NCBI RefSeq assembly: GCF_000003605.2
Contig: NW_003120937.1
Coordinates: 67,678 to 113,113, forward strand
Direction of reading: 5' to 3'
Length of the DNA stretch: 45,436 bases
DNA from: Saccoglossus kowalevskii
Taxonomy: Eukaryota; Hemichordata; Enteropneusta; Harrimaniidae
The position numbers were made by a program, and so were the translations under genes. This document shows positions 22,411 through 45,436 of the stretch, piece by piece; within the stretch, counting starts at the first letter, position 1; each line of letters opens with the position of its first letter. The notes below the pieces were generated by a model. The model was not told the DNA's origin, ran no database searches, and saw only the letters and a list, made by a program, of their open reading frames with translations.

Positions 22411-23154
22411 AAACAAAACATTGTTTTGGCCTAAAGTGCACTCCGTATCTATATAGAAATATTTAAAAGTATAGGATCACAAGGCTTTTTGAGAAGATAA
22501 CGGTTTATTGTTACAACAATTTCACTGTTGGTTCCGATATTGAAGATATTATGCTATATCTTAAATTGTACGTTGAGATATCGGCAATGGTGGTGTAACA
22601 CACCGTTCACAAAGCCTCATAGATCATTGATTCAGTGGGACAAATGTGTACGGGAAAGATAAATTTTGGTGCTCGGCACAGGAAAGATACATGTGGTTCA
22701 TCGATATAGTCACCAAGACCGGAAGCAGGGGCAACAAAACCAGGCGGCACACACAGGCACTTTTATAACTCCACAATCTTTAATGCAATCTACTTCAGTA
22801 AAATAAACAAAGGTACAATAATTAGCATATGCATATAAATATGTGAGATAGGATATCCTGAAAATATATCAAAGAAAGAGAGAAAACCTAACCTTAGCTA
22901 ATTAGAGTTTGAGTTTAAATGTGCTAATCGGTCCCTCAATGAATAATAAGATCAGCTAATTTGTCCCTAAGAAAGCCAATTTTATCAACAATAAATGAAC
23001 AATAACCATCAATCAATCAAAAAACACAAGTGTACATAAGTAACAAACACATGAATACGTCAACAGTTCAGCATCGATGTTCACATCAGGTCACAGTTCA
23101 CTTACAGTCAGCTTCAGTGTGCAGTTCCTGAGACTTGACAAAATCCATCGTTGG

Positions 23155-23404: not shown

Positions 23405-23957
23405 NNNNNNNNNNNNNNNNNNNNNNNNNNNNNNNNNNNNNNNNNNNNNNNNNNNNNNNNNNNNNNNNNNNNNNNNNNNNNNNNNNNNNNNNNNNNNNNN
23501 NNNNNNNNNNNNNNNNNNNNNNNNNNNNNNNNNNNNNNNNNNNNNNNNNNNNNNNNNNNNNNNNNNNNNNNNNNNNNNNNNNNNNNNNNNNNNNNNNNNN
23601 NNNNNNNNNNNNNNNNNNNNNNNNNNNNNNNNNNNNNNNNNNNNNNNNNNNNNNNNNNNNNNNNNNNNNNNNNNNNNNNNNNNNNNNNNNNNNNNNNNNN
23701 NNNNNNNNNNNNNNNNNNNNNNNNNNNNNNNNNNNNNNNNNNNNNNNNNNNNNNNNNNNNNNNNNNNNNNNNNNNNNNNNNNNNNNNNNNNNNNNNNNNN
23801 NNNNNNNNNNNNNNNNNNNNNNNNNNNNNNNNNNNNNNNNNNNNNNNNNNNNNNNNNNNNNNNNNNNNNNNNNNNNNNNNNNNNNNNNNNNNNNNNNNNN
23901 NNNNNNNNNNNNNNNNNNNNNNNNNNNNNNNNNNNNNNNNNNNNNNNNNNNNNNNNN
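23405..23957. other. Assembly gap (553 N)
   Basis: A run of N. Nothing can be said about its content. A frame reported across it is an artefact. Confidence 0.99.
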
Positions 23958-24668
23958 AATAAAACTAAAAAATAAAGAAACTTATGTCAATACATTATTA
24001 TCATATGTCTAATTAGTTAACTTATTAATTTCGCGACTAATTAATATTAATCACCTCAATTGCTTATTAAGCTATTCTAATTAATTTCTGCCCTAATTAG
24101 TACTAAGTAGCCATTAACTTGCTTGTAATAAGTGATTTCATCTTCAAGTTGGTCTCCATGGTTACCCCCATAGCTACCAAGAAAGTTATAGTACCCTGTA
24201 TAGGAAACCTATTTCAAACACAGTAATTCTTGAAGCAATTAAGCAACGCTCAAAAACTCCTAATAAAAATCACAAATTATCTATGATATACTACGGCTAA
24301 TCTTCAAACATTAAATCTTTGCTAATTATATTCATTACCGCATAATTGGCTTTGACCTAATTCGTACTTTCCCTGTAGTTTTAACTGAAGTTCACACACA
24401 CTAGCCATAACACTAATTCTTTCACTAAACTGTCACTCTCACAACTGATAGTGGGTTCTCAAGTATCAATAAACACCAGCTGGTATACATACACTAACAT
24501 GTACCAACTATCGTACCCTGGATCTATTGACTTACAATACATACTCAGTTAGAACCTACTCTTAATCGTATGAAATCATTAAGGTCTATTTATTTCAATC
24601 GGTTACAGTTGCATACATCTGAATATCAATAATTATTTTAAAAGTATGTGTTTTCAAAAATAGATAAA

Positions 24669-25595
24669 TTACAATAATTGACTAGTGTTTGGTAGAAAAT
24701 CGAATGATAATCCAGTGCCCTGAACCGCTTTTTCATACCAATTATTAAATTCATCGTTTTGGGAAACAGTAAAATATTGTTTCCAGCCACCACCTTTTAC
24801 TGCAATAAAAAATGTAACAGATGTAATATTATAGTAATACTAATCAATGTCCATAAAAGTACAATATGCAATATCGTTTCTTAGTGGCCCAATTCTTAAT
24901 GTGTTGCATGTTCTGTATTTCGAAGTAAGGATTTAATTCAAACGTGTACGAAAAAAAACACTGAAATGTAAGACAAATACCTTACCTTTTCTGACGAATA
25001 GTGATAGAGGTGGGTCTATTTTATGAAATTCACAAACATAATCCCGCACCTTTTGCTTTTTCATTGCCTCAAACGTGCAATTTTCGGCTATTCCTCGAAG
25101 GTTTTCCAATGTCAGTGTTTTCTCCATAAAAGTACATACCATTTTAACTGTTCCTTCTAAGTCCTATACGACAAAGATGATAAAGTTCATTCATGAAGCG
25201 TGACATAAGCGTGTCCTGTACGACTTTTGTTACTACTTGGATAATCAAAGTAACGTGTTTGTACAGATATATCCGGGCAAAATTAAATATGTCGACCACT
25301 ATGAGTAAATTCAAAGGTCGAGTTCGGTACAAAAGTGTCTACTGGTGAATTAGTGTAAACTAAATTTAAACAATTGTTGTAATTTGTTTACTTTCTCGAT
25401 AGTGAACTTTGCTAACATTCCCACAGCCCGTTCAATGTTGTCTCTTGTTAGCACTTAAGACAGGACTATCACTGTAGATTATCGTATTGTTGAATTTGTT
25501 TCCATTACCTTTACAATGTCTTCATATTTAAAAAAAAGGACATTGTCATCGTCTTTTTCCTTTCCACCAGTAGGTAACATGGGTTGGCCAATCTC
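24669..25595 (-). pseudogene. SULT-3: 3' half of a sulfotransferase gene, frameshifted
   Basis: Exon 4 is at 25509-25595, exon 5 at 24986-25163 and exon 6 at 24669-24799, in the same order and with the same GT/AG borders as SULT-2. Exon 4 has 87 rather than 86 nt. An extra base near 25553-25562, in the codons after YWWK, shifts the frame. In exon 6 the first codon gives Val for Gly, so the PAPS-binding RKGKVGGWK becomes RKVKGGGWK. Exon 5 keeps an open frame but has several private replacements (KKQKV, FHKIDPPLSLF). Exons 1-3 are absent: intron-3-like sequence continues to about 26885 and is then cut by a retroelement. Shared residues (GTVKMVCTFMEKTL, LRGIAENC) place it closest to SULT-4. No functional enzyme is expected. 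Confidence 0.9.
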
Positions 25596-26885
25596 CTAGT
25601 ATGACTAACAACAAATGTGAACACGCATATATTAATTTATCCTGGGTACGTGAAATAAATAGCTTCTTGAAAATTGAAATAAAAAAACGACTTATGGTTT
25701 GTGTACGTGTACCTTGGAGACTATTTATATATTGTCTTAATAAATCGGTGAACATTGTGTTATGAAATAAGTAAATTATAATGTATGCAAATCTGTTTAC
25801 TGCGTGATCAGAAGGTTCACGCTTGTATTGATTGTATTAACGCTTATTTGATCGAGTATCAAGTTCGCTGAAACAAATAAGTTTGTTTTGTTTGACAGTC
25901 GAATCACGTACCTGGAACAGCTTTCAAATACCGACAATTAAACCCTGGGCTCGCAAAATGTTAAGTAGCAAGTTGTGATAATGCAATAGTATTCGCATTA
26001 CAGTGGATGGTCGCGAGGTTATATTACCCCAAATACCGTAACTAAATGTATGTAATGGAATTGATTGATTATTAAGATGCAGATATGCTGAAATATATCA
26101 CATGATATTCCGCAGTATGCGGATGTAAAAAAATACTGTTAGTTATTTAAGTTATTCTATTGGTGCAGGTGAACTGCTTCAAGATACTGCAAACCGAATT
26201 AATGGGTGTAAACAGAAATACGAAAAGTGAGTTGCCATTAGAATTGAAAATGGTAGAGATATAAGAGAATTTGACGCAATGTTTCGATGAACTACACGCA
26301 ATTCAGGGATACCACACCACAGACATTCCATGGAGTTACCTCTGTGCAGACATGATAGGACTTCAATAAGTGCTTCAATCCGATGTATTCATTGTGCATT
26401 GCAGGAACAGTGCATTTAGTTCCAGTGACCACTATGGCTTCACAATGGTTATATTACTTATGTCTGGACTAGCTGATATTGGAAATATACCCAATGACTT
26501 TATTATTTATTTCAGTCGTTCTCCATGCCATGACTAATGGCACACGAAAATTACGACATCTTAATTTATCTTGGAGCAAAAAACGACGTCGGTTGAAAAT
26601 AACTTTAAGTGATTCTACACGTGGTAGCAGAAAAGAAAGAGATTCAATTGAAGCCACAAATTAATCTAAGCATTACTATATACGCGAGAATTTTAGGTTA
26701 GACGGTTTATTAAATATTCATTTATTTACTCTTTAATAATTCGTATATCAACATCGTTATTTACTCGTATTTTGTTGTTGTTGTAGTAGTAAATTAATAG
26801 TTTTAATTTTAATTTAGATGTGTATTGTAAAAACAGCTAGTTAGTCAGTTAAAAGTTGTACCTCGTTTGCATTATATTGATTAAA
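25596..26885 (-). other. Remnant of SULT-3 intron 3
   Basis: Non-coding. The outer part matches SULT-2 intron 3 in the same orientation (for example the CCATGGA and TGTGCAGACA neighbourhoods near 26330-26350 and 11930-11955). About 25830-25910 matches, inverted, 35880-35970 in SULT-4 intron 3. The homology stops at about 26885 where the Gypsy-type element starts. Confidence 0.55.
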
Positions 26886-28250
26886 CTTAGGTACCTTAGG
26901 TAGTAAAGGTTGTACATCTACTAATAAACAGGCTAGTGTGCCCTATATGGTGTCCAGGTGTTGAGTTGAGTTAAGTTAGCATTCAGTTAATGGGAGTGGT
27001 TGTGAACCCTTCATTGATTCTAGTCAGGATGATAGTTTAGATGTTGCACAGGTGGTACAGACTAGGGTTCAGAAAAAAACAAACAATATTACATAGGCCT
27101 ATAGTAGTTTAAAGAGTTGCATAGTAAGATTGATACTAATGATGGTAAGAAATATATTAATGTGGTCGCAGTGCGAGAGGCACAGCAGTATGGTTCCACA
27201 TTAGAGCTTGCTAGGAAATTAGTTATACCAATGTGTTACCGTGATCAAGTACTAGCACATGAGTCAGTTATGGCAGGTCATCTGGATGCTAAGCAGACTA
27301 CAGATAGAATAGCAACTCAGTTTTATTGGCCTGGTATGCAGTATGATGTTAGATATTGCAGATCATATGATATATGTCAGAAGACTTCTAGGAGTCGTGT
27401 TAGATTCGAACGATCAGTCCAGCGACTAAGGGAGTTATAGGTACATTTTAACTTTTGTAGACTATGCTTCTCAATACCCCGAATCTGTAGCATTAAAAAA
27501 ATTACCTCAGAAGTCGTTGCTGATGCATTAGTCAGTATATAGTAGGGTTGGTGTACCCAAAAATGTTTTAACACCTGACATTATAAAGGAAGTTAGTATA
27601 GTGTTGTCTATTAAACATTTAGTAACTACACCATATCACCCAGCATACAATGGTTTGGTTGAACGGTTTTTACATGAAAAGTATGTTGAAACACATGTGT
27701 CAAGAACGGCCCAAGGATTGGGATAGGTACCTTGACCCAGTACTGTTTGCTTATAGAGAAGCTCCTCGGGATAGTTTGGGTTTTTTTATGAAAGGGACAA
27801 ACTGAATGACATGGAAGTGGTTCCAGGTATGATGAACAGTATGTGTGTGCACGATACCAGTTAGATCTGAACCAGTTAGGTCAAAACCATACACTTTATC
27901 ATCCACCATGACAGATATAGTGCGGTCAGAGGTTAAGAGCATGTCAGAGATGGGTGTAATTGACCAATCAAATGCACCTTATGCCTCACCCATTGTTTTG
28001 GTAAATAAGAAAGGAGGGGCGTTAGGTTTTGCATTGAATTTCGCAAACTCAATCGAATTACAGTATTCGATGCAGAACCAATACCATCACCTGAAGACAT
28101 ATTTTCACGATTAAAAGATGGTTGGTACTCTAAAATTGATTTGTCCGAGGGGTACTGGCAGATCCCCATGAGTGAGGGGGCTAAAGAACAGACAGCTTTT
28201 CTCTAACCTGATGGTTTATTTCAGTTTCGACGCATGCCTTTTTCACAGAG
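26886..28250 (+). pseudogene. Broken Gypsy-type retroelement: integrase then reverse transcriptase
   Basis: From 27117 an open frame reads the integrase zinc-finger region: LAHESVMAGHL, then TQFYWPGM and YCRSYDICQKT. The usual CDxC Cys is Tyr. With frameshifts, the integrase core follows (FVDYASQYPE near 27455-27485, a deleted second Asp region near 27570, TTPYHPAYNGLVERF near 27625-27670, and DWDRYLDPVLFAYREAPR near 27718-27770). Reverse-transcriptase N-terminal motifs come next (EPVRSKPY, EMGVIDQSNAPYASPIVLV at about 27855-28005, then KIDLSEGYWQIPMSE and FQFRRMPF to about 28246). The element ends before the YxDD box. Integrase upstream of RT is the order known for Gmr1-like Ty3/Gypsy elements. 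There are multiple stops and no LTRs. It interrupts SULT-3. Confidence 0.8.
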
Positions 28251-28544
28251 AAATGATTATAAACGAACGAACAGAACAAAAGGGTAGGCCGTCGTGTTAT
28301 GGCGATATATTTTTTTTTTTACAATTTTCATTCAAATTTATTCCAAGTTATTGTATTATTTGTAACAATTTACTGATTATGTATGGACCTCTTTAAATAA
28401 GCTCGTTGATAAAGTATTTACTAAATAGTGAAAATTGTAAGGAATCTGAATTTGACATAATTTGTTCACATGCCGTTCAACCTGGATGAATTTCAGCATG
28501 GGGTCAAAAACTACCACAAATTGATTTGATATGATTTGATTTAT

Positions 28545-30030
28545 TTAAACTGATAAATTCATTTTCGGGACTGACAAGTTTCCATTGGAAATGGCTGTTG
28601 TTGGGTAACGATGGGAATGCTGATTAATATAATAACTGATATCATGGGCAAAGCGATTATTCTTAAGGTAAAATATGAGCAAACAAGTGTGAAGTTTGCA
28701 GAGTTTGTTAATGCCAAGGATGTCAAGCTGTTGAAAGAGAGGTGCAGAGTGCGTATATAAATCAGAGAAAGTAATAAGTCGCTGCAAGATTGGGTCCTAT
28801 ATTGGTAAAAAAAAATTAAATTCAGTTGCAATATCAAAGCTTTTTGATAATAGTCTGTTTTTATCGTCGTTGGCCATAATATCTTTAGGTGATGTCATGC
28901 TAGACTTTTTATTTAATAATTCATTAATTGTCATCCATGTTTTGTTCATATTCCCACTGGCAGACAAAAATCGTGTATGGTAGTATTTTTTTGGCTGACT
29001 TAAGCAATTTTGTCAAGATATTACGGTATTGTTTATATTTATTTCGCATTTCATCATTATTTGGCAATCTTTTCATTTTACAATATAATTTAAATTTTGA
29101 TTTAGTTGAAATAATTAGCCCCTTTGATAACCAAGGTTTGCGTATCGGGATCTTCTTTGTACTGACTTGAATTAATGGGGCGTGTTTTTTAATAGTACCT
29201 AAGAACAAGTCGCAAAAGGTCGCATATGCATAATTAATATCATTACAGTTATATACGGGTTGCCAGGAAATATTACTCAAATCGGAAATGAAATCGCTTT
29301 TATTGTAGCGTGAAAAGTCATATTTATGGAATAATGTGTTATGGTTAAGAACATGGTCAAGGTTTTTAATTATAGCAAAGATTGTATAATGGTCACTGAT
29401 ATCGGTTTCAATACTACCTCACTCGATGAAATAATCTGTAATATTTGTAATTACGTGAACAATAATGGTGTTTGTATTCTGCGTTACTCTAGTTGGGGTA
29501 TCATTTGTTTGAACAAAGTGATAACTATTCAGTAAGGCAACATAACTAGCAGGAGTTGGGATTCGTGAAATCAATATTGTAGTCACCAAATATAATACAT
29601 TTTTTTGTCTTTGGAGGACATATAATCTAAACACTTTTCGAAAGTATCTAGGAATTCGTGAAGGGGAGTATTTGGCTTCCTTTATATAACTCCAAATACA
29701 AACTTTTTGTTTTCTATGATCGTGACTCACAATGACTGATTTCAATATCATTAACACGAGAAAAGGACAATGAGTCATGAATATACAGTGCAACACCTCC
29801 ACCTTGGGAATGTATACGGTTGGAGGTGATAAAATTGTAGGATGAAATATTGAATAGCGAGCAATCAGTCTCATTACGTAACCAAGTTTCTGTTAGTGCA
29901 ATCATAGATAGTTTGTTTTCTATTACGCTAAGAAAACTAACAAGGTCATCAAAATGTTTACTAATTGATCTAATGTTTAGATGAAAACTGGAAAATGGAT
30001 GATGTTTAGGGTTTGATATAATATATATAA
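28545..30030 (-). pseudogene. Minus-strand LINE (CR1/L2-like) with endonuclease but no RT core
   Basis: Reading leftwards on minus: the endonuclease start FHLNIRSISKHFDDL then IALTETWL (about 29880-29985), GGGVALYIHD near 29795, FGDYNID near 29590, and TPTRVTQNTNT near 29480. A conserved linker follows (KKHAPLIQV...RKPWLSKGLI, KSKFKLYCKM, 29060-29200). Next, TWMTINELLN and ATEFN (28840-28925) precede where RT should start. At about 28788 the sequence jumps to the RT C-terminal end (TFSDLYTHSAPLFQQLDIL, 28545-28785). The palm with YxDD is missing. Frameshifts are frequent. A T13-like run near 28308-28320 could be the 3' tail but is separated from the frame by about 230 bp. Confidence 0.8.
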
Positions 30031-30049
30031 TATAATGAGACGTTCTATC

Positions 30050-31878
30050 ATATTGTGAATCCTTAAGTGGTATATGTAGATGTTGCCTCCAATATAATAA
30101 CGATGTCCGCCATATTGAATAATTATTTTCCTAGGCAAGGGTCAATGCATGATGCAATATAAGTCCGCAAAATGCGTGCGTTTCAGCTTTCCTTTATTAT
30201 AATACATTAGCTGGAGATATATGTATGTAATACAGGTTAACATGCTCATTCATCATAGTGCAATTGTTGCACTGCGTCATAAATGACTGAATTATTCATT
30301 ACTAGTATTCTATTTTCATTTTAAAACGTGGGCGAGTACGTGTTTACGTTGTAGTGGATCTGTAAACAAAGGTATGTCGTTTTTCTGTTAATTTATCACA
30401 TTCACATACCCGTTAACAGTAACACATTCAAATATGAAAATAACCCAACATCATTTTGTTTCTTGAATTAATATCATAGACGACCAAATATACTGATTAT
30501 TATGTTCACTCACTCTCCGACACTTTCATTCTCACTCTCTACATCTTTCTCTCTGTGTCACGTTCATTCCATATATACAGCATTTATTATATGATGATGC
30601 ATATATGTATAATAAATGCTGTATGAAATTTCGTGACATTGGTCATTATGATATAGCAATTGAATTCATCAATTTGAATACCAGCATTTGTACTGGTACG
30701 TACACTAAAAATACAGGGATTATTCAACGACGTCACAAAACATGTTTCGGTACCACATGCTGCCACTCGAATAAATATTAAGGTCTTTAGGGTTCTATAT
30801 GTCTTCATGCATTGTCACGAAGTGTCTGGATAACAATTATAATGAACTAATCACGTATTGTACACGAGAGGTGTAATTAATCATTATCATAGTGTAAACT
30901 GAATACTAACCACACTCAGAAGTAAGGTATATTACACGTACAAATATCTGAAAGTGTGTGTGTCATTACCGATGGCATACTGATGGTCGCAGCATGTAGC
31001 TATGTATAGCTACAAGTTTACACTCAAAACACTACATTTAACGTCCGTTAAACGCGCAGTGGATATAAGAGTATGTAGTTTTTTTTCTTAACATGTTTAA
31101 ATTATTTCTTCGAAACCTCAGCATTTCGGCAATTAGTATGTCAGTGTTTAGTTTAATAGTTTAAGTGAATCCCACGATATGATCGAATTAGATTTGCGAT
31201 GGGAATTATAATATACTTATAGGTATTGAAAAGTAGTGAAAGTAATAATATTATTGTGAAAAAAACTATAGTTACAAACATAGTGAAGCAAAGCAAAACA
31301 TTTTGCTCTATTCTAAAATGATTTGTAATTTATAATTGGTTAACAACTTTTTCTTATTATATAATTTATTTTTACTTTCAAATTTCTCCCACGACATTTA
31401 ATGCTTATGATATTATTACATGGACAAATGCGCACGTAAGAGTGATAAACTAGAGCACAATTTTGACGGCATGTACACTATATCCAGGTCCTTCCTGTCG
31501 TTGTTCGTCTATTTTTCGGTCGTAAAAAATCGAATCACCATGTTCCCATGTATTATCACGAGCAAAAGTATTTTCCCAGCTCAATATAACTAACGTCTTT
31601 TAGTTAATGTTCTCTTCCATTCTGTTGTTTACAAAGCCTGCAAATAATTCAATTAAAAGATTTACTCACACACTTTGCCGGTGAAATTATGTTTTATAAA
31701 CTAAACTCTTCTCAACAAATGTATACAGTTGATTGTGAAGTTTTAGGTATAAAATAATTATGTAACAACTAATTCACAATCACAACATATTTAGTAAGTG
31801 TATGGTCGCTCGATCAAAATCGGATAGTTGTCTGTTTCTTAGGCGGACTTTGTAATAACAGCTTATTGATACACTGCC
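30050..31878. repeat. SULT-4 5' flank; right arm of the inverted repeat
   Basis: Non-coding region upstream of SULT-4. From about 30100 it is an inverted copy of the SULT-2 flank (18983-20560). For its leftmost part, around 30110-30300, it is an inverted copy of 9690-9800 next to SULT-1. It also preserves an uninterrupted version of the site where the 7.5-9.7 kb element inserted. No gene is visible. Confidence 0.6.
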
Positions 31879-34800
31879 ATGAATCTGTTCAACGAAGATG
31901 GGACGTGGCGGACGGATACATACAGTTATAAAGGAGTCAACTTCCCATGGTATGTACCACTCTCAAGTCTGAATGCCATGGACAAGTTTGAAGTGAGAAA
32001 AGATGATGTATGGATTTGTACCTTTCATAAATCTGGTGAGGATCGCACTTTAGAGTATATAGTAAGAGTATGTGTTTTTACAGTTATTCTGCAAGAGCAT
32101 AATTATTTGTTTCAGATTTCGACGTCGTGCCTACTACATTGTACATAACTTTCAGTGAATACTGGTTATGTTGTGTGTATTATATTAACCGTCGATGTAT
32201 GATCGTGTATTTGTCTGACATGTTGATTACTTAATGTGTATACTATGAATGAAATCATCAAAGGTTAGTAGTCCGAATTGTTCGTTCTGTCATCAGGAAA
32301 CGGAAACTACTTACCATCTTTTTTATTATTGTAAATATGTAAAAACATTTTGGTTTGCCTTTAGTGATGTATTTAAAAACATCTTTGGTCCAGATGCTCT
32401 TTCCCTCAGGCAGATAATTTTAGGCTGTACTGATTTTTTGGTGTTGGCAAATTATTTGGTACTTTTAGGGAAGCAATATATTTATAATTGTATAATGAGT
32501 AAGAGTATACCGAGTGATGTATATTTTCGTAAGGTGGTAACTGAAGCATGCGAGATTGAAAAGCATATGGCTCTATTACCTCTGAAAACAATTACAAGAA
32601 ACAAAGCACAGACAAATACAATGAATATATTTTCTAAAATAGGGAAGTGGTCTATTATCAGTGAATTATTATTATATTATTTCAGTGAATTAGCAATTAT
32701 CTTGTTTTGTTTTATTTCTGTTACTCTTGTTTGCTTGTCTTTGTCGTTTTGTATTATGTAATTAATGTTTACTGTAATGTATGTAATTAAATGAAATAAA
32801 ATTGTGTAAAGAGAAAAAAAATGTGTATACTAAACTAAATGTAATACGTAATACACAATGTGATATATGTATATATGCCATAATCCATGGTTCATATAGG
32901 TAGTAAAGCCAGTGGGTTAAACAACATTCGGTGATTTATAAAAACAATAAATTAGGTTACAGTTTTATGAGACAATACAATTGATTTTCATGGCATAAAT
33001 GAAACAAATAGAGCATACATTTTTTTCAATTTTCTCAATAAATATAGTTGTATTTTATGTGTTAGAACAAAAATAGTATCTGATTTTCAGAATATTTCAT
33101 TGCATATTTTATTATCTGCCTTCTATGTTTAATAAATTCATATATTTGTAATGTTAACAGAATAAAAAAAAAATAAAATTGACAAAAAATATTCATGGCA
33201 TGTAGTGAAAGAATAAAAGAATATTAAGTTTTTGCTATTTACCCGACGTGAATTGGCAATACAGTTTTATTATTATACATTCGAATAAATAACATAACTA
33301 CTCATAACCAGAGTATTCGCACTCGAAACACACAAACAATTTATAATATATAATAAGTCAGACAAATCAATTAATTTAAAACTTAAAATTGATATCAATT
33401 TAAAACATTTGAAACTAAAAATAAAAGCAATTAAAGGTTACTGAACTTTCTTTTTGCATTTATTTCAATAATTGTCATCAACCATTCATCACTCAATAAA
33501 TAGACTTATGTAAAATGTTCAGTCAGATAAAACAAAATGTATATTCCACTACAGTGGTAATGAATGGTAACCAGTATATTTTTTTTAGATTTACGGAGTT
33601 GACAAATTTTCCTCTTTTATGTAACTAGGCAAGCAAACATGACAAATGAAGTGTCTAATGCATGTTTATGGTCAGAGAATTTGATAATACTTTATACAAG
33701 AATACTATATTTTGCAAATTACCTGCCATAATTGACATATACACTATAAATCTATTTTCGGTTCTAAATTGATTTATATAAAAAGAATATTATGGATCCA
33801 AACACTTACATGCATCATCGGCAGATTGGCAAAACAAACTGTTTGTTGGACTACTCCATATTTATTCATGGATCATGAGTCCGACATGCACACAATGTTG
33901 TGCATTTTATATACCTTGCTCCATCAATTGAGTTTGTTCTCGGCACATGATAAATTCTGCATCCAAACGTTTCTGAAGATGGAATGGTCTCTTCTGTGAG
34001 TTAAACTATAGCTAAGTTGATGAGCAGTTGTGATAGAGCCTTCAAATGTGACGTATATACGAAGTCGTCCAATGAAAATGGATATTGAGTTTACAGCAAT
34101 AGCAGGACATTGATGTTTATTGTGAAGAGTTTTGTTTTTGTCGCGCCGGGTTTGAAGTTCACTGGTCGGGATAAGACGGTAGTGCCGGTAGTTTTTATTA
34201 TCGGTAATGGTTACTAGTATATGATCTAAGATTCGGTAACGAAACGTTACACATATATGTACGAATAAAACGCTAATGTGAATTTTATTTGACCAAAAAC
34301 AATCTCTGCGAATATCATCTATTCTGCGAAAATTACAACAATTGGTAAGCATCATCGTAACAACGTCGTGATATTCGTACCATCTAACTTACAGATTGGG
34401 ACATAAATATCGTAATGTTGCTCGTCAGTTATTTGGTTGTTCTCAACAAGAGTTTCCTAGTCTTATTCAATCAATATAGTAACTGAAAACAAAGAATGTA
34501 ACAATTTGTCAGGAAATGTACAATTTTCGAATGGCATTTGAAATGACGAAGATCAACAAAGTAGGATAAAAATGTATGTTTTTGAAAATTTGTTAAAATA
34601 AGATACAAGTGAATAATTATATTGGAATGGAATCAATGAACATTTTAAAAGTCAAGGGTTACGAGAAACGTGTAATAACATTATATACATGGGTTATGCA
34701 ATGTAATGTGATGTGAGGCTTCGTTTCTGTATCTGTTTCTGTATTTGAAGACGTTTGATACACCATTTACAATTTATATTTATATTCTGATTTACACCTC

Positions 34801-37182
34801 GAATAGAGAACAGCATTTTCTAAAAAATATGTTAAGTTCCGTCTAATCTAATATACCTATAATGTATCCGAAAATTTATGTCATTTGAAAACAATAATAA
34901 ATTACTCACTTGTCAACAATGCAACATTGAGAGGTAATCTGATGTGCATTTAGAAATACATCAAAATATAATTAGATGCTTAAAGTTTATAATCTAATTA
35001 TATATTTTAACTTTATTAATGTAACTTTAATAATTATAGTATATTTATAAGTATTTCAACATTTAATTCAACAGGTACAGCATTGATGAGTGAGATTGTT
35101 TGGGATATAATATCATGCAGCGGTGTTATTAATACGGAAGAACCACTGGATAAATGTTTATATCTCGAAATACATGTTCGGTTGTCCAAACCAAATTATG
35201 AAGTTCTAGCTAGCATGCCTTCACCACGTATCATCGTGACCCACCTACCTCCTTCGTTTCTACCACCACAACTGTTTATTGTGAGACCAAAGGTTTGTTG
35301 AAAAAATACACAAGTATATACAAATATCGAATATTGACATATATAATCAATTTCAATGGCCGGCGAACAACTGTCTAGATAACTTGCTGTCATTGTTTTT
35401 CAGTTGCCTAGATTTACCTTTTTGGCATACATTAAAAGTAATAATGATGGCATTTAATATAATAACAAACAATGACCACCATAACTTGATCCTACACATA
35501 TGTTTTTTTTTTCCTGTCTGCTTTGGCCAATGGATATATATGATAGTTCATGAACATCATATGTTTGAAATATGTCCTTGTGAGCGTACTTGCTATTGGT
35601 TGTAAAAGACGTTCCATTCTCATGTCTTTTGAGAACAATTTTTGTTTGTGTTTAATATCTTGAATGATGACAAATCTATTATGTTTCCAGATTATCTACG
35701 TCGGCAGAAACCCAAAGGATCTTGCTGTGTCTTTCCATTACCATTTATCTGTTATGCCCATTAATCAAAGTTATACAACATTCCAACATTTCATCAATGA
35801 CTTTATGAGAGGGACAGGTAAGACAGCTGTAGAACATACCAATGCGTAAAACTTAACAATGAACATCGAATACACTAAAGGGCAAACAAAGGACGTAGTT
35901 CGATTGTCAATCAAAACAAACTATTTTTTTTCAGCGAAACAATATGCGATCAAATAAGCGTTAATACAATCAATGCGAGCATACGTACTAAACATACAAC
36001 ATTATAATTTACTTATTTCATAACACAATGTACACCGATGTATTAAAACAATATATAAATATTCTCCAAGACACATGTGGAACAAACATAATTTGGGCTA
36101 AACCACAAGTAGTGCACAAAGTTAATTCTCAATTCCATTTTCAAGTATTTGATTATTATTTACCATATTATAGTATATCACGTACCCAGGATAAATATTA
36201 TATATGCGTGTTCGTTATTTGTTGTTAGTCATACTAGGAGATTGGCCAACCCATGTTGCCTACTGGTGGAAGAAGAAAGACGATGACAATGTACTTTTTT
36301 TTAAATATGAAGACATTGTAAAGGTAATGGAAACAATTAAACAGTACGACATTCTACAGTGATAATCCTGTAAGTGCTAGCAAGAGAATCAAAGACAGAA
36401 TTGAACGGGCTGTGGGAATGTTAGCAAAGTTCACGATCGAGAATGTAAACAAATTACAACAATTGTTTAAACTTAGTTTACACTAATTCACCAGTAGACA
36501 TTTTTGTGCCGAACTCGAGCTTTAAATTTACTCATAGTGGTCGACATATTTAATTTTGCCCAAATATATCCGTACAAACACGTTACTTTGATTATCGTAA
36601 CAAAAGTCGTACAAAACACACAAATATCAAACTTTATGAATAAACGTTACAATTTTTGTCTTATAGGACTTAGAAGGAACAGTTAAAATGGTATGTACTT
36701 TTATGGAGAAAACACTGACATTGGAAAACCTTCGAGGAATAGCCGAAAACTGCACGTTTGAGGCGATGAAAAAGCGAAAGGTGCGAGATTATATTTGTGA
36801 ATTTTATAAAATAGACCCACATCTATCACCATTCGTCAGAAAAGGTAAGGTATTTGTCTGACAATTCAGTGTTACGTACACATTTGAATTAATTTCTTAC
36901 TTCGGAAATATAAAACAATTTATGTCACACCCAAACACTTTTCTTAGTTTAATGCAACACAATAAGAATTAGGCCACTAAGAAACGATATTGCACATTGT
37001 ACTTTTATGGACATTGATTAGTATATTGCACCTTTTACATTTTTATTGCAGGAAAAGTTGGTGGCTGGAAGCAACATTTTACTGTTTCCCAAAACGAAGA
37101 ATTTAATAATTGGTATGAAAAAGCGGTTCAAAGCACTGGATTATCATTCGACTTTCTTCCAAACACTAGTCAAAAGTTTTAA
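31879..37182 (+). CDS. SULT-4: intact cytosolic sulfotransferase, six exons, inverted copy
   Basis: Exons on plus: 31879-32035, 35075-35292, 35691-35817, 36238-36323, 36667-36844, 37052-37182. They sum to 897 nt (298 residues plus stop) with no lesion and GT/AG borders throughout. Predicted role as for SULT-2: PAPS-dependent sulfonation in the cytosol, substrate unknown. Motifs: TFHKSGTAL (48-56), RIIVTHLP with His109, IIYVGRNPKDLAVS (Arg131, Ser139), FKYED, and RKGKVGGWKQHFTVSQNE. Val107 stands where a Lys is usual. The first exon encodes exactly the same 52 residues as SULT-2, differing at six synonymous sites. Exon 2 differs at 11 of 72 residues. The C-terminal half is closer to SULT-3. 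Intron 1 contains a LINE insertion. It is the only copy on plus, with its upstream flank facing left toward the degraded retroelements. Confidence 0.92.
32234..32831 (+). mobile_element. 5'-truncated LINE in SULT-4 intron 1 with target-site duplication
   Basis: The body is about 32245-32820, ending in AATAAA (32795-32800) and an A-rich tail (32814-32820). It is flanked by ATGTGTATACT at 32234-32244 and 32821-32831. The paralogous intron of SULT-2 has a single copy of this 11-mer (18631-18641, minus) and no insert, which is a clean empty site. It contains a 170-codon frame with the C-terminal zinc knuckle of non-LTR elements. Confidence 0.9.
32249..32761 (+). pseudogene. LINE ORF2 C-terminal fragment (zf-RVT-type)
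   Basis: 170 codons, open to a stop just before the 3' tail. CSFC followed by HLFYYC gives a C-x2-C-x8-H-x4-C knuckle (Cys11, Cys14, His23, Cys28). It is followed by KTFWFAF and later LGKQYIYNCIMS and ACEIEKHMALL, a layout typical of L1/Tx1-like LINE tails. It is a truncated tail, so no reverse transcriptase or endonuclease is present. The hydrophobic end (LAIILFCFISVTLV) could look like a membrane segment. The start codon is not a real gene start. Confidence 0.8.
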
Positions 37183-38094
37183 TTTATCTATCTACGTAGG
37201 TTCTATCTAGAAATATACAATATAAATAGAACGCAACAAATATGAGTGTTATTTAGGAGTAACAAACCGTGTTTTGCAAACACAATGTTTTTTTCGGGGG
37301 ATCCATTACAGAAGACTTTGAAATTTACAATTGGGTGAGTTGGTATATTTTTGAAAACACATACTTTTGAAATAATTATTGATTAATAGTTGTAACACTA
37401 AACCGTTATTTTTTCAAAAAGGCTTGTGATCCTATACTTTATATTTCTATATTTCTATATAGATTGGGAATCACTGAATGTGAGACACATTTTTGGTGTT
37501 GGTCAATTGTCTTGTTCACTGAATATTATTAGTTTTTCGATAAAGGAGGGCAAGATTGTGTAGGCTGTAAGTAATTGACTCATCTATTTCTCATCTTGTC
37601 TTGTACTAAGGTATGATCCTAATAATGAATGTATTATGATTTAATTTGTACAATAAAGTGCACTTTTGATCTATTTTTATAAATATTTTAACGTATAGGA
37701 TCACTCGCCTTTTTGAAAAAACATTTGTGTTTTAGTACTTTTAGAAAAGTGTTTTAGGGAAATATCAAAACATTTTTTTAAGAAAATTAAACACATTCTA
37801 ATCACACTGTTTTACTGTTTGTTTTTTTTAAATGTCACTAAAATGATTATTGATGTGATATTCATGAACTAATGCAACTTCATGCAATCAGTATTAAAAA
37901 AAATTATTGAAAAGTTTGGCAGCTCGTAAGTAAACATTATGACATTTTCATAAAAGTTTTGTGTCAATAATGCGGAATAATTAAATGTGTGTACAAATAG
38001 AAATCGAGATACGTGGTTAATTAGGTACTTTGTGGTAAATGTGGTTCTTGTTCCACTCACATCTGATCTTTTTTTTCGAAAGCTATTAAATTTT
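37183..38094. repeat. SULT-4 3' flank with inversion junction near 37460
   Basis: About 37345-37440 is the reverse complement of the SULT-3 3' flank (24605-24660 joined to 22445-22517). From about 37470 to 37722 the sequence instead matches 21541-21770 plus 22432-22497 in the same orientation. The word TATAGGATCAC (37696) therefore recurs here in inverted form (GTGATCCTATA near 37430). This marks the right edge of the inverted segment. No gene is seen. Confidence 0.65.
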
Positions 38095-40045
38095 GAAACA
38101 TTTCAGAAAGCAAAATCACCAACGATGTTTCAACCCAAAACACCAGACTATAAATATTTTACAAAGTGTTGATGTTTATGGTACATTTATGTTCATGAAG
38201 TAACTAAAAACACTGTTTTCATTTGAATAACGTTATAAACCAAACACACAACCTAAAACACCCAACTATATAAGCATTCTTATGCAGGACACGTTTGTAT
38301 GTAATCTACGGTACGCACCTATAGTAGCCACAATGCTTATTATCGACTGTATGCAACATATTTATTAGGCGAAAATGCTCACACACGTAGCAATTGTCGG
38401 CAGACATACAGTGCATGTAGAGATAAATGTATTGAATTTAGTATTTTCATTAATAAACATCTTTATATATTTATGTATTTTGCGTGAACGTACCATGTAC
38501 CTGTCACAAGTTTAAAACTAAACATCCATGCTGTTATCAACTGTGAAAATCAACACCAGCATCTAGAAAACATATGTTTGTTATGTATTATTCGGAATGT
38601 CAGTAAATAAACAACTTAGCTGGTCTGTAGTGTTCATTCATAAAGAAATAAAGTTTATAATGAGTTCGTATGTATTACCGTTAAAATATTGTTATAAATT
38701 TACGTTCATTTGCTGTTTCATTTAAAACGTAATTTTTGGATATATTTGGCGACATTCGTTTGTGTATTGTGTGAGAGTTGTTGACGCGTTTGCGTCGTTT
38801 AGGATCCCACGTATAAATCCGCGCCAGTAAAAAGGCCTCTTACCAAAACCCGGATTAAATCGAATAGATTTTCTTTTAGACCAGACGAGCGAAAAATAAC
38901 ATGACTAAAAACTTTTTTTCGTATTCAGTTTTATGATAAAACCATTATGGCCTGGATACGGCTTTTGCTGCCGTCGATCGTACGGCGCACGCGCCCTCGC
39001 AACCTCGGACCGCAAAAGCCGTTCACACTGACTACACCAGCAGGGTTACCAGTTATTGTTTGTTGGCTGTATACACATATACAAGTCACATCTAATGCTA
39101 ACAAGTAGCAGTGGGAAAATAAACCCACAACACATGGGTAGTTCTGTTTGTTAGCCATACTTGACTCCACCCTGTGACATCATTAAAGAGCAACAACTTG
39201 AACCGAATGATGTCTTGTAGATTTTCTGAGAAAAAAAATGGGAATGTATGAAAGTGTTACGTCGTCACGAAACGTGTGGGAAATGTAATTGTTAAAGCCA
39301 GTGTCAGCAGTTATTTGCAGCGGCCTCCATTTATTTTATTAGATGCGGGTTAACACGTTTTTAAGATCACGTTCATGCATTTACTGGAAGAGAGAATTCC
39401 ATACTGCATAACTTCCCTGCCAGCATCCCCCCCCAGAGACATGATCTACGTTACCAAATAAAATTATAGAAGTGTTATGCAGAATTTAACGGGAATGCAG
39501 TTCAGTTTGTGTTGTTTGAACTTAATTTTTCATATTGCAATTGCGTTACTTTACAGCAATAATATTATACATTACATATTGCTGGTTCAAGTATTGCATT
39601 GCTTAAAACAATAATTAAACATTACTTGTTTTTGATAATATACGTTTTAGATTCATGAAAAAAAAAAGATCGGAGCGGACAAGATATTGGGAATTAATTG
39701 TGTCCTGTTAATATGGGTTATTTTAGTTCAGTGTTGTCCTCGTCCTCTATGTAGTGCATCTATGCAGATTCGAATATTGAGTGACGATGGGTTTACAATC
39801 GAGTATTTATTTTTAGAGAGCATGTTTCTTTGAAATTAATGTTTTTTTTATTTGTTCCACTATTTTTTCGTTTTTCACAAGAATTGTATGTGCCCGGAAA
39901 GCCAATCGAGACACCACCACATGGGAAGGGGTTGGGCACTTGCGTCACACTTATGTCAATGAAAAACAATTGTCCGATCTTTACAATTATTTGGTATTGT
40001 ATCTACAAGATCACGAAATGTTTAAATTTCAGTAAACACACGTAT
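38095..40045. repeat. Exonless copy of SULT intron 2
   Basis: Same-orientation copy of SULT-2 intron 2. 38095-38520 matches 13530-14050, and 39255-40045 matches 14830-15600 down to GTTTAAATTTCAGTAAACAC. Where SULT-2 continues into exon 2, the copy diverges and no exon 2 or exon 3 is found. The middle (about 38560-39240) is unrelated to SULT-2 and holds a GC-rich hairpin. The 106-codon plus frame at 39830-40150 is a chance frame. Confidence 0.65.
38959..39021. repeat. GC-rich inverted repeat
   Basis: CGGCTTTTGC at 38959-38968 and its exact reverse complement GCAAAAGCCG at 39012-39021 enclose 43 bp that includes GGCGCACGCGCC, itself palindromic. This is a sharp GC island in AT-rich DNA and could be the fold-back core of a small element. 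Confidence 0.6.
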
Positions 40046-40579
40046 TCATCTGCACATAAGTCTGGGACTCTTCATGCGATCAATATTATTATTTACAACA
40101 ATCATACCTGTTTTATATACAAGCTTGTTCTCATGGTATACTCAAACTAACTTTATTAATGTTACACGTGATCTATTAATCGTATTTTATGCTTACTCTT
40201 TGATATATTTCCAAGTTAACACTTTACAAAAATTATAATTTTATCAGTGGCAACACACTTGTGTCCCTGTTACAAGGACTTGTCAATATTCAGACTGTGT
40301 TTAGCGTGAGCATTTTTCATATTTCTGGTAAATGCACATTCCTGTTAGAAACACTTTCCCGAATGTGTTTCTATGAAAATTACTTTTAAAAATGTGATAA
40401 GCACATTTTTATATATGTTCCTGGTGGAAACACTTTGTAACTCGTTCTTTTCTATTGGAAATGCTTTTTAAATGTTTTACCACATTTCTACCTGTGCCCC
40501 AGTATTTCTTTAATGACGATTGTAATTTTGCGACATTGTTACGTTTCAGTAATTTAAGGAATATGGTCAATATGAACAT
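40046..40579. other. Spacer without recognisable genes
   Basis: AT-rich sequence with loosely repeated GAAACACTTT/GGAAATGC-type words between about 40290 and 40480. Nothing else is supported. Confidence 0.35.
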
Positions 40580-40945
40580 TTTGTATACATTTCAAAAATA
40601 AGGAATCCATTTCAATTCGTAGGCAACACTGAATTATTAGGAAATGTGTTAGCTTTCCTGATGATGTATTCTTTTAAAAATCACAAAAATATGTTTTGCT
40701 TTCTCATCGCCCGAGCAATTTTCTGCTATTCCACGAATATTCACAGAAGCGAGTGTTTTTTTCAATGAAATCCCACATCTTAATTCTCTTCCAAGTTCAT
40801 TTATAAAGTGTGTTGTGCACGTTTTGTGTGTGGACATATCTGAGCGAAGTTAAAAATGTCGACCACGATGAGTAAATTTAACAACAACACGACCAAACAC
40901 ATTTATATTATAACAACATTACACCACAGAAACGCTGCGCCACTT
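40580..40945 (-). pseudogene. Decayed SULT exon 5 relic
   Basis: Minus strand. The block IRGIAENCSGDEKAKHIFVIFKR, read at about 40690-40735 and beyond, matches the exon-5 segment around RGIAENCTFEAMKKRKVRDHIC with deletions and frameshifts. The flanks on both sides match those of SULT-2 exon 5 (40590-40640 with 10975-11030; 40840-40885 with 11320-11370). No other exon is adjacent, so this is an isolated remnant of another duplicated unit. Confidence 0.7.
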
Positions 40946-41442
40946 GAACATGCAGAATATATAGTGCATTCATGCATTCGATTTATTTTTGAGGCCAGGT
41001 ACACAACGTATAATGCTAATTTATGTTTATTTCCCTTAAGGAAATTCATTGTCTCTGAAATTATCAATATTTACCAACATGGATAAAGATATTATTAATA
41101 CAGAATACTGTCGAACCATACATTCTCAGTCAAGAATGTATTAAATAACGAACACATTTGTCATTACTATAACCAATTTTGTCTGACTGAAGAATGTAAA
41201 ATGTTCAGAGCGCAACACTTGGGTAATAGACCATTATGCACAATATACTAACTAAACGTTAATTAATCATTATAAACAGCTTACAACAGTTATGGTGTCA
41301 CATTGCGAATACGGAGAATGAACAATTCCCTTCACATACATATTTGCAAAAATATAGGCAATATAATCTGCACATCGCAATTTAAATAGCTCACTACGTG
41401 GGTCTGTTAGAACTATCATTAATAAATTATTGATGTAATAAA

Positions 41443-44400
41443 TCAACTGATTTGTTTTGGAAGAAAATCAAATGATAATCCTGTTCCTTCAACAGCTTGT
41501 TCGTACCATTTATCAATTGCTTCATTCTGAGCAACAGTAAAATGTTCTTTCCAGCCACCAACTCTACCTGCAAAATATATTCAAAAGACAACGAGAAAAG
41601 CTTAGACCAGTTTTTTTGTCCACTTCAATGTTTCTTTTGAGCACTAGTACTGTGACACAATTTTAAACCGACTGTTTTGTAGTCACAATAAAAATATATT
41701 AACCGTTACGATAATGTCGAATAATACCTTTTCTCACAAATGGTGACATTGAAGGGTCAATTTTTAAAAAATCACAGATATGACCCCGCACTTTGCGTTT
41801 CTTCATCTCTTTAAAAGTGCACTCTGCAGCTATCCTTTCAAGCGTTTCCGTAGATAGCGATTTCCCAAGGAAATTGCATATCATTTCAACTGTTCTCCTC
41901 AAGTCCTACAAAGATAAGCAATATAGATTTTATCTGAAAAATATTTAGATAGTACACAGATGACATTTGTTGACTATAAAGTGCAATCCGAACACCGGGG
42001 ACATTATTTCTACAACATTGTGTCTGTTACCTTTTTCATGTCTTCGTATTTCAAAAACAAAACATTGTCATCGTCCTTTTTCTTCCACCAGTAGGTAACA
42101 TGAGATGGCCAATCTCCTAGTATGACTAACAACAAATAACAAACGTAGTGTATATTTATATAGTGTAGATACGAGGGTCGATTATTCCAAAAAAAGTGCT
42201 CAATACAAAGTATTTGTAGAGCAAATAGATACGGTAATTAAGACAACTACATGAATATTGAAACTCGACAGCACTGTTTCGTAAGGTACAAGTACCTAAC
42301 TCATCAGGAGCTTCATGTTTAATATTTCACTGTACTGCACGCGCATGTATTATATGTGGGGGTATAGAAACGTCTGACTAAGTTAAATAAAATAAACTAA
42401 CTACAGTTTATTCAACATCGAACACTTCCATACTACCAGGATACAAACTGAAGAAATACATAACTTTAAGCGGGAATACTCTTTCGTGTAGGTCTTAAAA
42501 TTGAACGTGAAAGAAAACACACGAAGTTTAAAAGGCGCGGGAACTTCATATAATAAGTATATCTGAATGCCAAATTACTATACAATGATTGGTTAATTCT
42601 AAAACAATGCGTCGTTGTGAATGGCTCTATAATTGCCATGGTAACATATTTAGGTTATTTGATCTGCTGATAGCGGTAGAGAATCCGTCTTACGAGTATA
42701 AAAGGGAAGGTTGACTTCACGTTTAAATTATAGTGACAATCACCATGTGGTACGGACGTGCGCTTAGTCACATGGAATTTCAGAGAAATGAAAACGATAA
42801 CGTTCTCCGACATTATACACTTCGCAAACTAACATATGAAATGAAATTAAAACGCACAGGTTGTCTCATCATGTCTTTGATCTGTGTCGACATGATGATA
42901 CGAGTTCATTTCTTTTGCTCAGTGTGGAGTGGTGGAGTCTAAAAATGTAGATACATTTTTATTTCACACATAAAATGCATTGTTTGCTTGAGCTATTGTA
43001 CGGGCTAGAATTTTCCATGTTATTCTATGCTTACTGCTTTTTCTCCTTGAGTAACCAAACATGCTTACCTAATTCTGTCGTATCTACACTATATTCCGCT
43101 ACTTGGCTACATGGCATGGAGTAGGCATTTAGAACGTTTTCCATTCAAATCAAATATGTCACTGATATATAATACAATCGAAACACGGCTTAATTGTCCA
43201 CCTATACGTGTATTGGCGTGCTGCTATCCGATTGCAAACGACAGATTGGATAAACCGATTTCCTTATTAAAATAGAAATAAGTGATATCGTCGCTGCCAT
43301 GAATTTCAAATACAGAAAGCCTTGTTAGTTTTAGTTAATTTGCTTTGAACGTCAAACACTATAAAATTGGCGTTTTATATTCTCAGTAAAACACCACCAA
43401 TATAACACATTAGATAATATTTATGGTTGCACTTTCTAACACAATTGTGTTATCTTAAAAATATAAATTGCTCATGTTCTTTTTTCATATAGTTTATTTC
43501 ATTGAAAAGGTGATTTTTTTATGTGTTTTGGCCAGTTGCTCATTGAGCTGTTGTACGAAAATATAACTGTTAAAGAAGTCTCGAAAAAAATGGGTGGAGT
43601 CACTGTGAATGACTGTAAATGACACTTGTTTGCCTCAACGAATGTGTTATTAGGTTATGTTTTTAATTTATTTTATTTATTTTCACCGCACCCCAACCCA
43701 ACAAAACTCGACATAAATCAACAATTAATTGGTGTAACATCCAAAAAATTAAATATATATCTAGAATAATATGAGGTTATTACGAGTATATTTATGTCAA
43801 CAACTTGATTGATTTTTAAAAGTCATTTAAGTAACTGTTTGGCGAATCCGTCATCATTGAGTATATCATATGATTGGCCATGACATAACACATACACACA
43901 TATTAACGCGAGCCTGAATCCCCAAAAATGCAATAAATGTACGCACGCATGGGCCCTCTGTAAACTATTAAACTTACTGAATTTTCTACAACTTACACAT
44001 TCATTTTATGATGACTTACTTTGACCACTCAAAAACTCATCTAAAAAATCTTGATAAGTATTATAAGATGGAGATACTGGTGAAACAGTTAAATGATGGT
44101 GGTACGATACGGCAATATCTTTCGGATTTCTAGCAAGATATATAATCTGCAAAAAAAAAAAAAAAATTCTACACTGTCAAGCAAATCAGATTTACCCCTT
44201 CCCCTCACCCAAAAAGCAGTATGTATCACAATCAAGGTCGATATAACATGCAAGAATGGCAACGACAAGCGTGTACCCAAAATGATTCATTAACAAAATG
44301 AACTAAATAAGTATACTTATTGATAGCACATCTCACCTTTGGATGTACATCGAACAGCTGTGGCGGCAGAAACGAGGGAAGTAGATGCGTTGCAACGATC

Positions 44401-44554
44401 CGCGGTGAAGGCATCTCAGCTATGACTTCGTAATTAGGTCGTGGACCGCGGTAGTGAAAATCTGGATATATACATTTGTCCAACGGTTCTTCTGTATTAA
44501 TAGCGCCGCTGTATGATAATATCCTCCAAACAACTTCACCCATCCACCCTGTGC
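41443..44554 (-). CDS. SULT-5: cytosolic sulfotransferase, exons 2-6 (exon 1 off window)
   Basis: Exons on minus: 44337-44554 (exon 2), 44020-44146, 42031-42116, 41728-41905, 41443-41567. They are open throughout with GT/AG borders. Exon 2 opens in phase 1 with [10 protein letters not shown], so it needs an exon 1 supplying the KSG of the loop. None is visible up to 45436, where the intron holds a tandem array. Motifs: [16 protein letters not shown] with the catalytic-type His preceded by Ala two residues back, [26 protein letters not shown], and [18 protein letters not shown]. The loop Trp is retained, unlike SULT-2 and SULT-4. The 125-nt last exon and the [11 protein letters not shown] segment tie it to SULT-1. 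It is likely functional if exon 1 exists. Introns: 190, 1903, 125 and 160 bp for introns 2-5. Confidence 0.88.
42117..44019 (-). other. SULT-5 intron 3 (1.9 kb)
   Basis: Intron with no recognised exon. It includes a plus-strand promoter-like cluster at 42534-42704. The rest shows nothing I can name. Confidence 0.5.
42534..42704 (+). promoter_or_regulatory. Promoter-like cluster: E2F-like, inverted CCAAT, TATA
   Basis: GGCGCGGGAAC at 42534-42544, ATTGG at 42588-42592 and TATAAAAG at 42697-42704 lie in the order of a cell-cycle-type core promoter on plus. About 28 bp after the TATA box comes a 70-codon frame (42733-42942) that I cannot assign. All three motifs can occur by chance, so the call is tentative. 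Confidence 0.25.
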
Positions 44555-44599
44555 CTATTGAGATGAATAACTAATTACATTCAGAAATATAGCTGTATA

Positions 44600-45436
44600 G
44601 CAGCAGGGTTCCGGGCCCTCATGACCAAAGACACTAGGCACATTTGCTGTATACACTGATAGCACTGTTTGCATGTCCCTATCGACAATGGTGCATAAGA
44701 TATTACAGTTATGCATATTAATGAAGTGACATGACCATATATGGTCATTTGATACATTTGTAACATCTGCTGTCCAATGTTTTTATTAAAGTAATAGTTT
44801 ACCGTTTATATCTGCAACAGTGCTTGAAATGTGACAGTTATGCAAAATAATGTGGTATGGTCATCAGATATATTTATCATATCTGTTGTCCAGCGTCTTC
44901 ATTATAGTGCTGGTTGCAAGTTTATATCTACAACAGTCATTGAGATATGCCAGTCATGCATATTAATGAGGTCACATGTTCATATATGGTCATCTGATAT
45001 TTCAGATATCACATGTCCCTTCCCTTTACTATAACACTGGTTGCAAGTACCTAACTGCAATAGTGCTTGATATATTACAGATATGCATATTAAAGAGGTC
45101 ACATGACCATATGTGGTATTTCAGTCATATGACATGTCCCTTCCCTTTACTGTACACTGGTTGCAAGTACCTAACTGCAATAGTGCTTGATATATTACAG
45201 ATATGCATATTAAAGAGGTCACATGACCATATGTGGCATTTCAGTCATATGACATGTCCCTTCCCCTTACTATACACTGGTTGCAAGTACCTAACTGCAA
45301 TAGTGCTTTAGATATTACAGATATGCATATTAATGAGGTCACATGATCATATGTGGTATTTCAGTCATTTGACATGTCCCTTCCCTTTACTATACACTGG
45401 TTGCAAGTACCTAACTGCGATAGTGCTTGAGATATT
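44600..45436. repeat. 120-bp tandem array, about 7 units, running off the window
   Basis: The best units start at 45051, 45171, 45291 and 45411 (CTAACTGCAATAGTGCTT; the last copy has GCGA). More diverged units extend left to about 44690. Each unit contains TATGCATATTAA and an AGGTCACATGACC-like inverted motif. The array lies in SULT-5 intron 1. Because 120 is a multiple of three, an artefactual frame with a 40-residue repeat appears on plus. Confidence 0.9.

Follow-up and report, generated by a model that had tools for sequence, protein, structure and literature searches.

The DNA examined here, referred to as the window, is a stretch of 45,436 nucleotides from contig NW_003120937.1 of the hemichordate Saccoglossus kowalevskii, and carries a tandem array of cytosolic sulfotransferase (SULT) genes in which one unit, SULT-4, is turned round. 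The DNA is AT-rich and eukaryotic, with a single N run (23,405-23,957) lying outside both junctions described below. Five loci were assigned to the cytosolic sulfotransferase family (PF00685), of which SULT-1, SULT-2, SULT-3 and SULT-5 are on the minus strand together with a decayed fragment; SULT-4 alone among the members found is on the plus strand, as a preliminary description of this DNA had claimed (Table 1).

Table 1. Coordinates of the SULT loci, spacer elements and junctions in the window
Feature	Position	Strand	Remarks
SULT-1	1096-6279	-	Broken: frame lost at exon 2 G run; stop codon in exon 5
SULT-2	10694-18982	-	Intact, six exons; complete comparison unit
c3, spacer element	21556-22497	+	SULT-2/SULT-3 side; ~660 bases (21771-22431) not in c5d
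c3 right-end piece	22435-22521	+	SULT-3 3' flank spacer; partner of c4i, identical to the reverse complement of 37385-37475 at 76/86 positions
SULT-3 stub	24625-26882	-	Exons 6, 5 and 4 and part of intron 3
Left junction zone	26883-28373	+	Mostly Ty3-like pol fragment
Far part of inverted SULT-4 5' flank	28374-28521	+	Reverse complement of SULT-2 flank 20703-20850, across the LINE
LINE (long interspersed nuclear element)	28522-30221	-	Decayed non-LTR (non-long terminal repeat) retrotransposon inside inverted 5' flank; limits approximate
Near SULT-4 5' flank	30222-31878	+	Inverted relative to SULT-2 5' flank
SULT-4	31879-37182	+	Intact, six exons
c4i	37385-37475	-	Inverted copy of SULT-3 spacer at 3' end of SULT-4 unit; inverted segment ends here
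Right junction	37468-37475	.	Strand switch; CACT common to both sides
c5d, spacer element	37471-37722	+	Array (direct) orientation; homologous to 21556-21770 and 22432-22495
Decayed SULT exon 5/intron 4 fragment	40485-40880	-	Another dead copy in the array, lying between SULT-4 and SULT-5 (nhmmer)
SULT-5	41430-44561	-	Exons 2-6 open

The spliced models of SULT-2 and SULT-4 both encode 298 residues with GT..AG at all five introns. SULT-2 gave a near-complete match to PF00685 (206.5 bits). SULT-4 (exons 31879-32035, 35075-35292, 35691-35817, 36238-36323, 36667-36844 and 37052-37182) is free of internal stop codons and matched profile positions 1-254 of 255 of the same Pfam family (Sulfotransfer_1; E 3.1e-62, 210.7 bits, curated cut-off 22); with the whole domain above the cut-off, it is by sequence a member of the cytosolic sulfotransferase family. 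Cytosolic sulfotransferases are marked by the co-substrate motifs KSGT, RNPKD and RKGxxGxWK and by a catalytic histidine in THLP, all of which are present in the SULT-4 translation and in its alignment to PDB 2reo. The nearest solved structure by sequence is SULT1C3 (PDB 2reo and 2h8k; SULT-4 residues 35-288 of 298, E 1.5e-47), from which SULT-4 differs in having VTHLP where SULT1C3 has a lysine before THLP. The solved SULTs in the alignment have this lysine; all four copies with exon 2 carry another residue in its place (valine in SULT-4, glycine in SULT-2, serine in SULT-1 and alanine in SULT-5), although the THLP histidine is kept in each of them.

The preliminary description treated the exons, introns and flanks of SULT-4 as the reverse complement of the SULT-2 unit. 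The exons, introns 4 and 5, the 5' flank and much of intron 1 bear this out, but introns 2 and 3 do not, measuring 398 and 420 bp in SULT-4 versus 2,242 and 1,589 bp in SULT-2, nor does the 3' flank past 37,262, which matches the SULT-3 spacer and for which nhmmer found no match in the SULT-2 3' flank. SULT-4 intron 1 also contains a LINE 3'-end fragment that is not in SULT-2 (32224-32820; zf-RVT E 2.2e-5, below cut-off), with a 12-base target-site duplication, ATGTGTATACTA, on both sides and the empty site visible in SULT-2.

The right end of the inverted unit can be read directly. To the right of the last SULT-4 exon, 37,344-37,394 is the reverse of 24,664-24,614 and is followed by 37,385-37,475, the reverse of 22,521-22,435; the two partner segments are separated in the SULT-3 flank by ~2.1 kb of extra DNA that includes the N run. 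The second of these matches scored 118, compared with best scores of 42 from 200 dinucleotide and 37 from 30 plain shuffles. Farther right, 37,507-37,647 matches 21,630-21,770 in direct orientation (score 90; best of 200 dinucleotide shuffles 64, of 30 plain shuffles 49), and nhmmer lengthened this match to 37,471/21,556 and added 37,655-37,723 as direct to 22,433-22,499. The strand switch thus falls at about 37,468-37,475, and only the four bases CACT are common to both sides of the joint. A switch near 37460, between an inverted segment at 37345-37440 related to the SULT-3 3' flank and a segment at 37470-37722 direct to 21541-22497, had been proposed before and was borne out in each part, the direct segment resolving into 37,471-37,722 against 21,556-21,770 and 22,432-22,495, and both flanks scoring above all 200 dinucleotide shuffles. 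An inverted 33-base match (37,409-37,441 and 37,689-37,721, 91%) was considered as the terminal inverted repeats of a small DNA transposon and rejected: c3 lacks a comparable left end, and each arm is the right end of one of two spacer copies, c4i and c5d, that face each other.

The left end is less accessible. The SULT-4 5' flank at 30343-32060 is inverted relative to SULT-2 20556-18801 (1303 of 1610 positions identical), and a short additional inverted piece (30222-30288 versus 20613-20551) extends the homology to the edge of a decayed LINE. One open reading frame of this element (29717-30130) has a weak PF03372 match, below the curated cut-off (E 0.008), and another (28927-29418) gave no profile match in the domain search. 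On its far side, 28374-28521 matches the reverse complement of 20703-20850 with a score of 88, where 20 plain shuffles reached at most 41 and 200 dinucleotide shuffles at most 62, and with an nhmmer E of 2.3e-5 for the SULT-2 flank as query. The match is old and weak, and its right order and orientation speak for it. The LINE is most likely an insertion within the inverted flank, because homology to the SULT-2 flank is found on both of its sides. The left junction is placed between 26,882 and 28,374, since inverted homology resumes at 28,374-28,521, and not at the LINE near 30050 that the preliminary description took to obscure it; what hides the edge is a Ty3-like pol fragment at ~26.9-28.3 kb. 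This fragment (27108-28206) matched PF17921 (E 9e-13) and, below cut-off in both cases, PF13683 (E 0.0058) and PF00078 (E 1.5e-5), the order on one strand being integrase zinc finger, integrase core and reverse transcriptase. Having the integrase domains ahead of the reverse transcriptase is the arrangement described for the Gmr1 clade in parts of two reports (PMC6238403, PMC8220671), although here it may instead represent two fragments side by side. When 26,883-28,373 was compared on either strand with 12,494-21,560 of the SULT-2 unit and 30,222-35,890 of the SULT-4 unit (the latter without 32,224-32,820; 15 shuffles each), none of the 10 comparisons scored above dinucleotide shuffles, and these left no trace in the zone of a lost SULT-3 5' half or of further inverted flank.

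SULT-3, which borders this zone, is a remnant. Its homology to SULT-2 ends at 26882/12493, inside intron 3, exons 1-3 were not found, and one extra base in exon 4 causes a frameshift. With gapped columns dropped, changes found only in SULT-3 number 11/263 at codon positions 1 and 2 and 30/594 in introns and untranslated regions (Fisher p 0.73), whereas those found only in SULT-4 number 2/263 and 21/594 (Fisher p 0.02). SULT-3 therefore looks to have evolved as if neutral over its branch and SULT-4 under constraint; the counts are compatible with a stub that never had a function, while being too small to exclude an early functional period. SULT-2 and SULT-4 differ with dN 0.061 and dS 0.194 (nonsynonymous and synonymous divergence, NG86) or 0.065 and 0.160 (YN00).

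Where they overlap, SULT-3 and not SULT-2 appears to be the copy closest to SULT-4, a link the preliminary description missed in comparing SULT-4 with SULT-2 and not with the stub. Ungapped identity over the part common to the three copies is 914/997 for SULT-3 and SULT-4, 1007/1125 for SULT-2 and SULT-4 and 884/1009 for SULT-2 and SULT-3, so that SULT-4 diverges by 8.3% from SULT-3 and by 10.5% from SULT-2; SULT-3 and SULT-4 also have several small, unpolarised indels in common. The spacers pair in the same way as the genes, with 76/86 identical positions between c3 and c4i and 38/40 in the near flank, both being more distant from c5d (c3/c5d 127/170 and 52/64; c4i/c5d 51/62). The blastn identities point the opposite way (85.9% for SULT-2 and SULT-4, 81.3% for SULT-3 and SULT-4), mainly because gaps are counted and the SULT-3/SULT-4 alignment extends deeper into intron 3. 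An origin of SULT-4 directly from SULT-2 was set aside in favour of SULT-3, given the ungapped identities and the spacer that SULT-3 and SULT-4 share, though the rooting is weak.

The explanation we favour, with moderate confidence, is one small inversion, staggered at its left break or repaired by copying to equal effect, by which a whole unit was flipped and a dead duplicate of its 3' part stayed in place as a stub. The ancestral plus-strand order would have been SULT-2, its 5' flank, c3, a gene X, the 5' flank of X, c5d, the older decayed SULT and SULT-5, with the genes on the minus strand. The segment turned round would begin within c3, take in gene X and finish with the X 5' flank, while the stretch from c3 to X intron 3, with exons 6, 5 and 4, would also have stayed in its old place; the flipped gene would be SULT-4 and the remaining stretch SULT-3. 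SULT-3 would then have been dead from birth because it was without exons 1-3 and a promoter of its own. SULT-4 would have carried its upstream flank with it in the flip, which would explain its survival; the near 5' flank probably holds its promoter. Comparison with SULT-2 shows later insertions of transposable elements in the SULT-4 5' flank and intron 1, and comparison with SULT-4 shows the insertion in the SULT-3 spacer.

Such an event would explain at once why a stub stands beside a complete flipped gene, why the two junction zones look as they do, why the gene and spacer pairs have diverged to a similar degree and why the copies differ in constraint. At the right junction, as a staggered break requires, the end of c3 appears in reverse and abuts the left body of a spacer copy in direct orientation, and the same segment stands at both ends in opposite orientation, the c3 end and exons 6-4 being found in SULT-3 and, inverted, in SULT-4. 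Of the two possibilities raised in the preliminary description, a simple inversion or an inverted duplication, the evidence favours something intermediate, the inversion of one unit with its left end duplicated; that the junction is readable stands for the right side, where the joint shares its four bases, the left joint being covered by the Ty3-like fragment.

Several observations weigh against a staggered-break inversion. The sequence of the left junction is not readable, and the match at 28374-28521 was unreported by blastn at 1e-3 and by nhmmer with 28200-28950 as query. Rooted grouping of SULT-3 with SULT-4 is weak, with 65% bootstrap over 200 replicates, and sites polarised after dropping gapped columns divide among SULT-3+SULT-4, SULT-2+SULT-4 and SULT-2+SULT-3 as 7/4/2 of 335 when the outgroup is the decayed fragment, 6/5/0 of 393 when it is SULT-5 and 6/5/0 of 389 when it is SULT-1. 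About 1.2 kb of intron 3 is present in SULT-2 and partly in SULT-3 but missing from SULT-4, so that the model has to add a subsequent deletion in SULT-4. Gene conversion among copies may distort these comparisons. No uninverted relative was seen, and the uninverted arrangement is one that we infer.

The main rival is an inverted duplication, in which gene X was copied head to head by template switching to give two whole genes; exons 1-3 and the upstream flank of SULT-3, the older of the two, would have disappeared afterwards, the Ty3-like insertion perhaps being tied to this loss. Both junctions would come out alike under this reading, SULT-3 and SULT-4 would again be the closest pair, and the four-base shared sequence at the right junction suits template switching as well. 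It needs a second event, however, and the 10 comparisons of 26,883-28,373 revealed no remnant of the lost half; nor do the SULT-3 counts (11/263 versus 30/594) show any sign of a constrained period, although at such numbers a functional period is still possible. We regard it as possible but rather doubtful. A clean cut-and-paste event that inverted one member of an older pair of whole tandem genes, with the SULT-3 5' half and part of the SULT-4 spacer deleted at the left break, seems unlikely: it too would leave only two junctions, and the weak rooting does not force an origin of SULT-3 and SULT-4 in one event, but it calls for three breaks plus the loss and does not by itself predict the unconstrained SULT-3 branch. 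Ectopic recombination between inverted repeats around the SULT-4 unit, to which the 33-base inverted match might point, is very improbable: on the right side that match was produced by the junction itself, and c3 and c5d are mutually direct and would give deletion or duplication rather than inversion, the left side being unreadable. An assembly error, through a reversed contig or a chimeric join, is hardly to be expected either: the junctions are known here from the assembled sequence, but no N run occurs between 23,958 and 45,436, so SULT-4 is not visibly scaffolded over a gap, and at its divergence from SULT-3 and SULT-2 it is not simply a second haplotype of either.

It is also conceivable, though we put this forward only tentatively, that after the inversion SULT-4 kept exchanging sequence with the direct-orientation SULT-2, gene conversion between opposite orientations having kept exons 4-6 and their introns alike. 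Synonymous divergence between the two is 0.145 in exons 4-6 versus 0.231 in exons 1-3, a difference given without a significance test; gapped identity is 85.9% in the 3' part versus 69-82% in the blocks that cover intron 1 and the 5' flank, and ungapped identity 89.5% in the 3' part versus 80.9% in the 5' flank with exon 1. The exchange may also predate the inversion. If it did continue, the inversion did not free SULT-4 from concerted evolution.

Elsewhere in the array, no match to SULT-5 exon 1 was found up to the window end. A 120-base tandem repeat (3.7 copies, 94% matches) occupies 44998-45436, upstream of SULT-5 exon 2 and up to the end of the window. SULT-2 intron 2 (13576-15606) and the spacer right of the junction (38117-40041) have ~2 kb in common in direct orientation, 67-85% alike in blocks and with an inner inverted repeat at 14494-14804; this shared sequence is probably a transposable element.

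Small inversions in tandem arrays are easily recorded as a mere change of arrow. Here enough remains, in the stub neighbour, the location of both breaks and the later insertions, to propose an event, and because SULT-3 is probably what the flipped gene left behind as a stub, the inversion of SULT-4 is more informative than first stated. One inversion can yield a dead stub and an intact reversed gene together, and a count that treats SULT-3 as a separate member of the array could put the number of duplications too high. Expanded cytosolic SULT families occur in other animals, as in the scallop Chlamys farreri, for which the relevant part of one report gives 83 genes (PMC5700196); that family and the present array are alike in being multi-copy, and the part of the report in question does not take up the orientation of the genes or inversion. 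We found no report in the open-access literature of an inverted unit in a SULT array. The closest parallels are staggered-break inversions of Drosophila subobscura such as O4 and O8, in which, according to the parts of that study dealing with them, the truncated breakpoint copy decays and the whole copy is kept (PMC5080602). As in those inversions, an inverted duplicate of breakpoint sequence is present at our locus, with a truncated gene at one break and a whole gene at the other. Models of staggered breaks have been reviewed, and repair can leave the same marks, as sections of that review set out (PMC7584159); from the marks at our locus a staggered break and repair by copying are indistinguishable. 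O4 and O8 are described in the same parts of the Drosophila study as polymorphic and checked against the uninverted arrangement, whereas the SULT-4 inversion spans ~7-9 kb and one gene of a tandem array, and its uninverted state is reconstructed. SULT-4 and SULT-3 add a clear case to a kind of rearrangement already described in flies, and the mechanism is not new.

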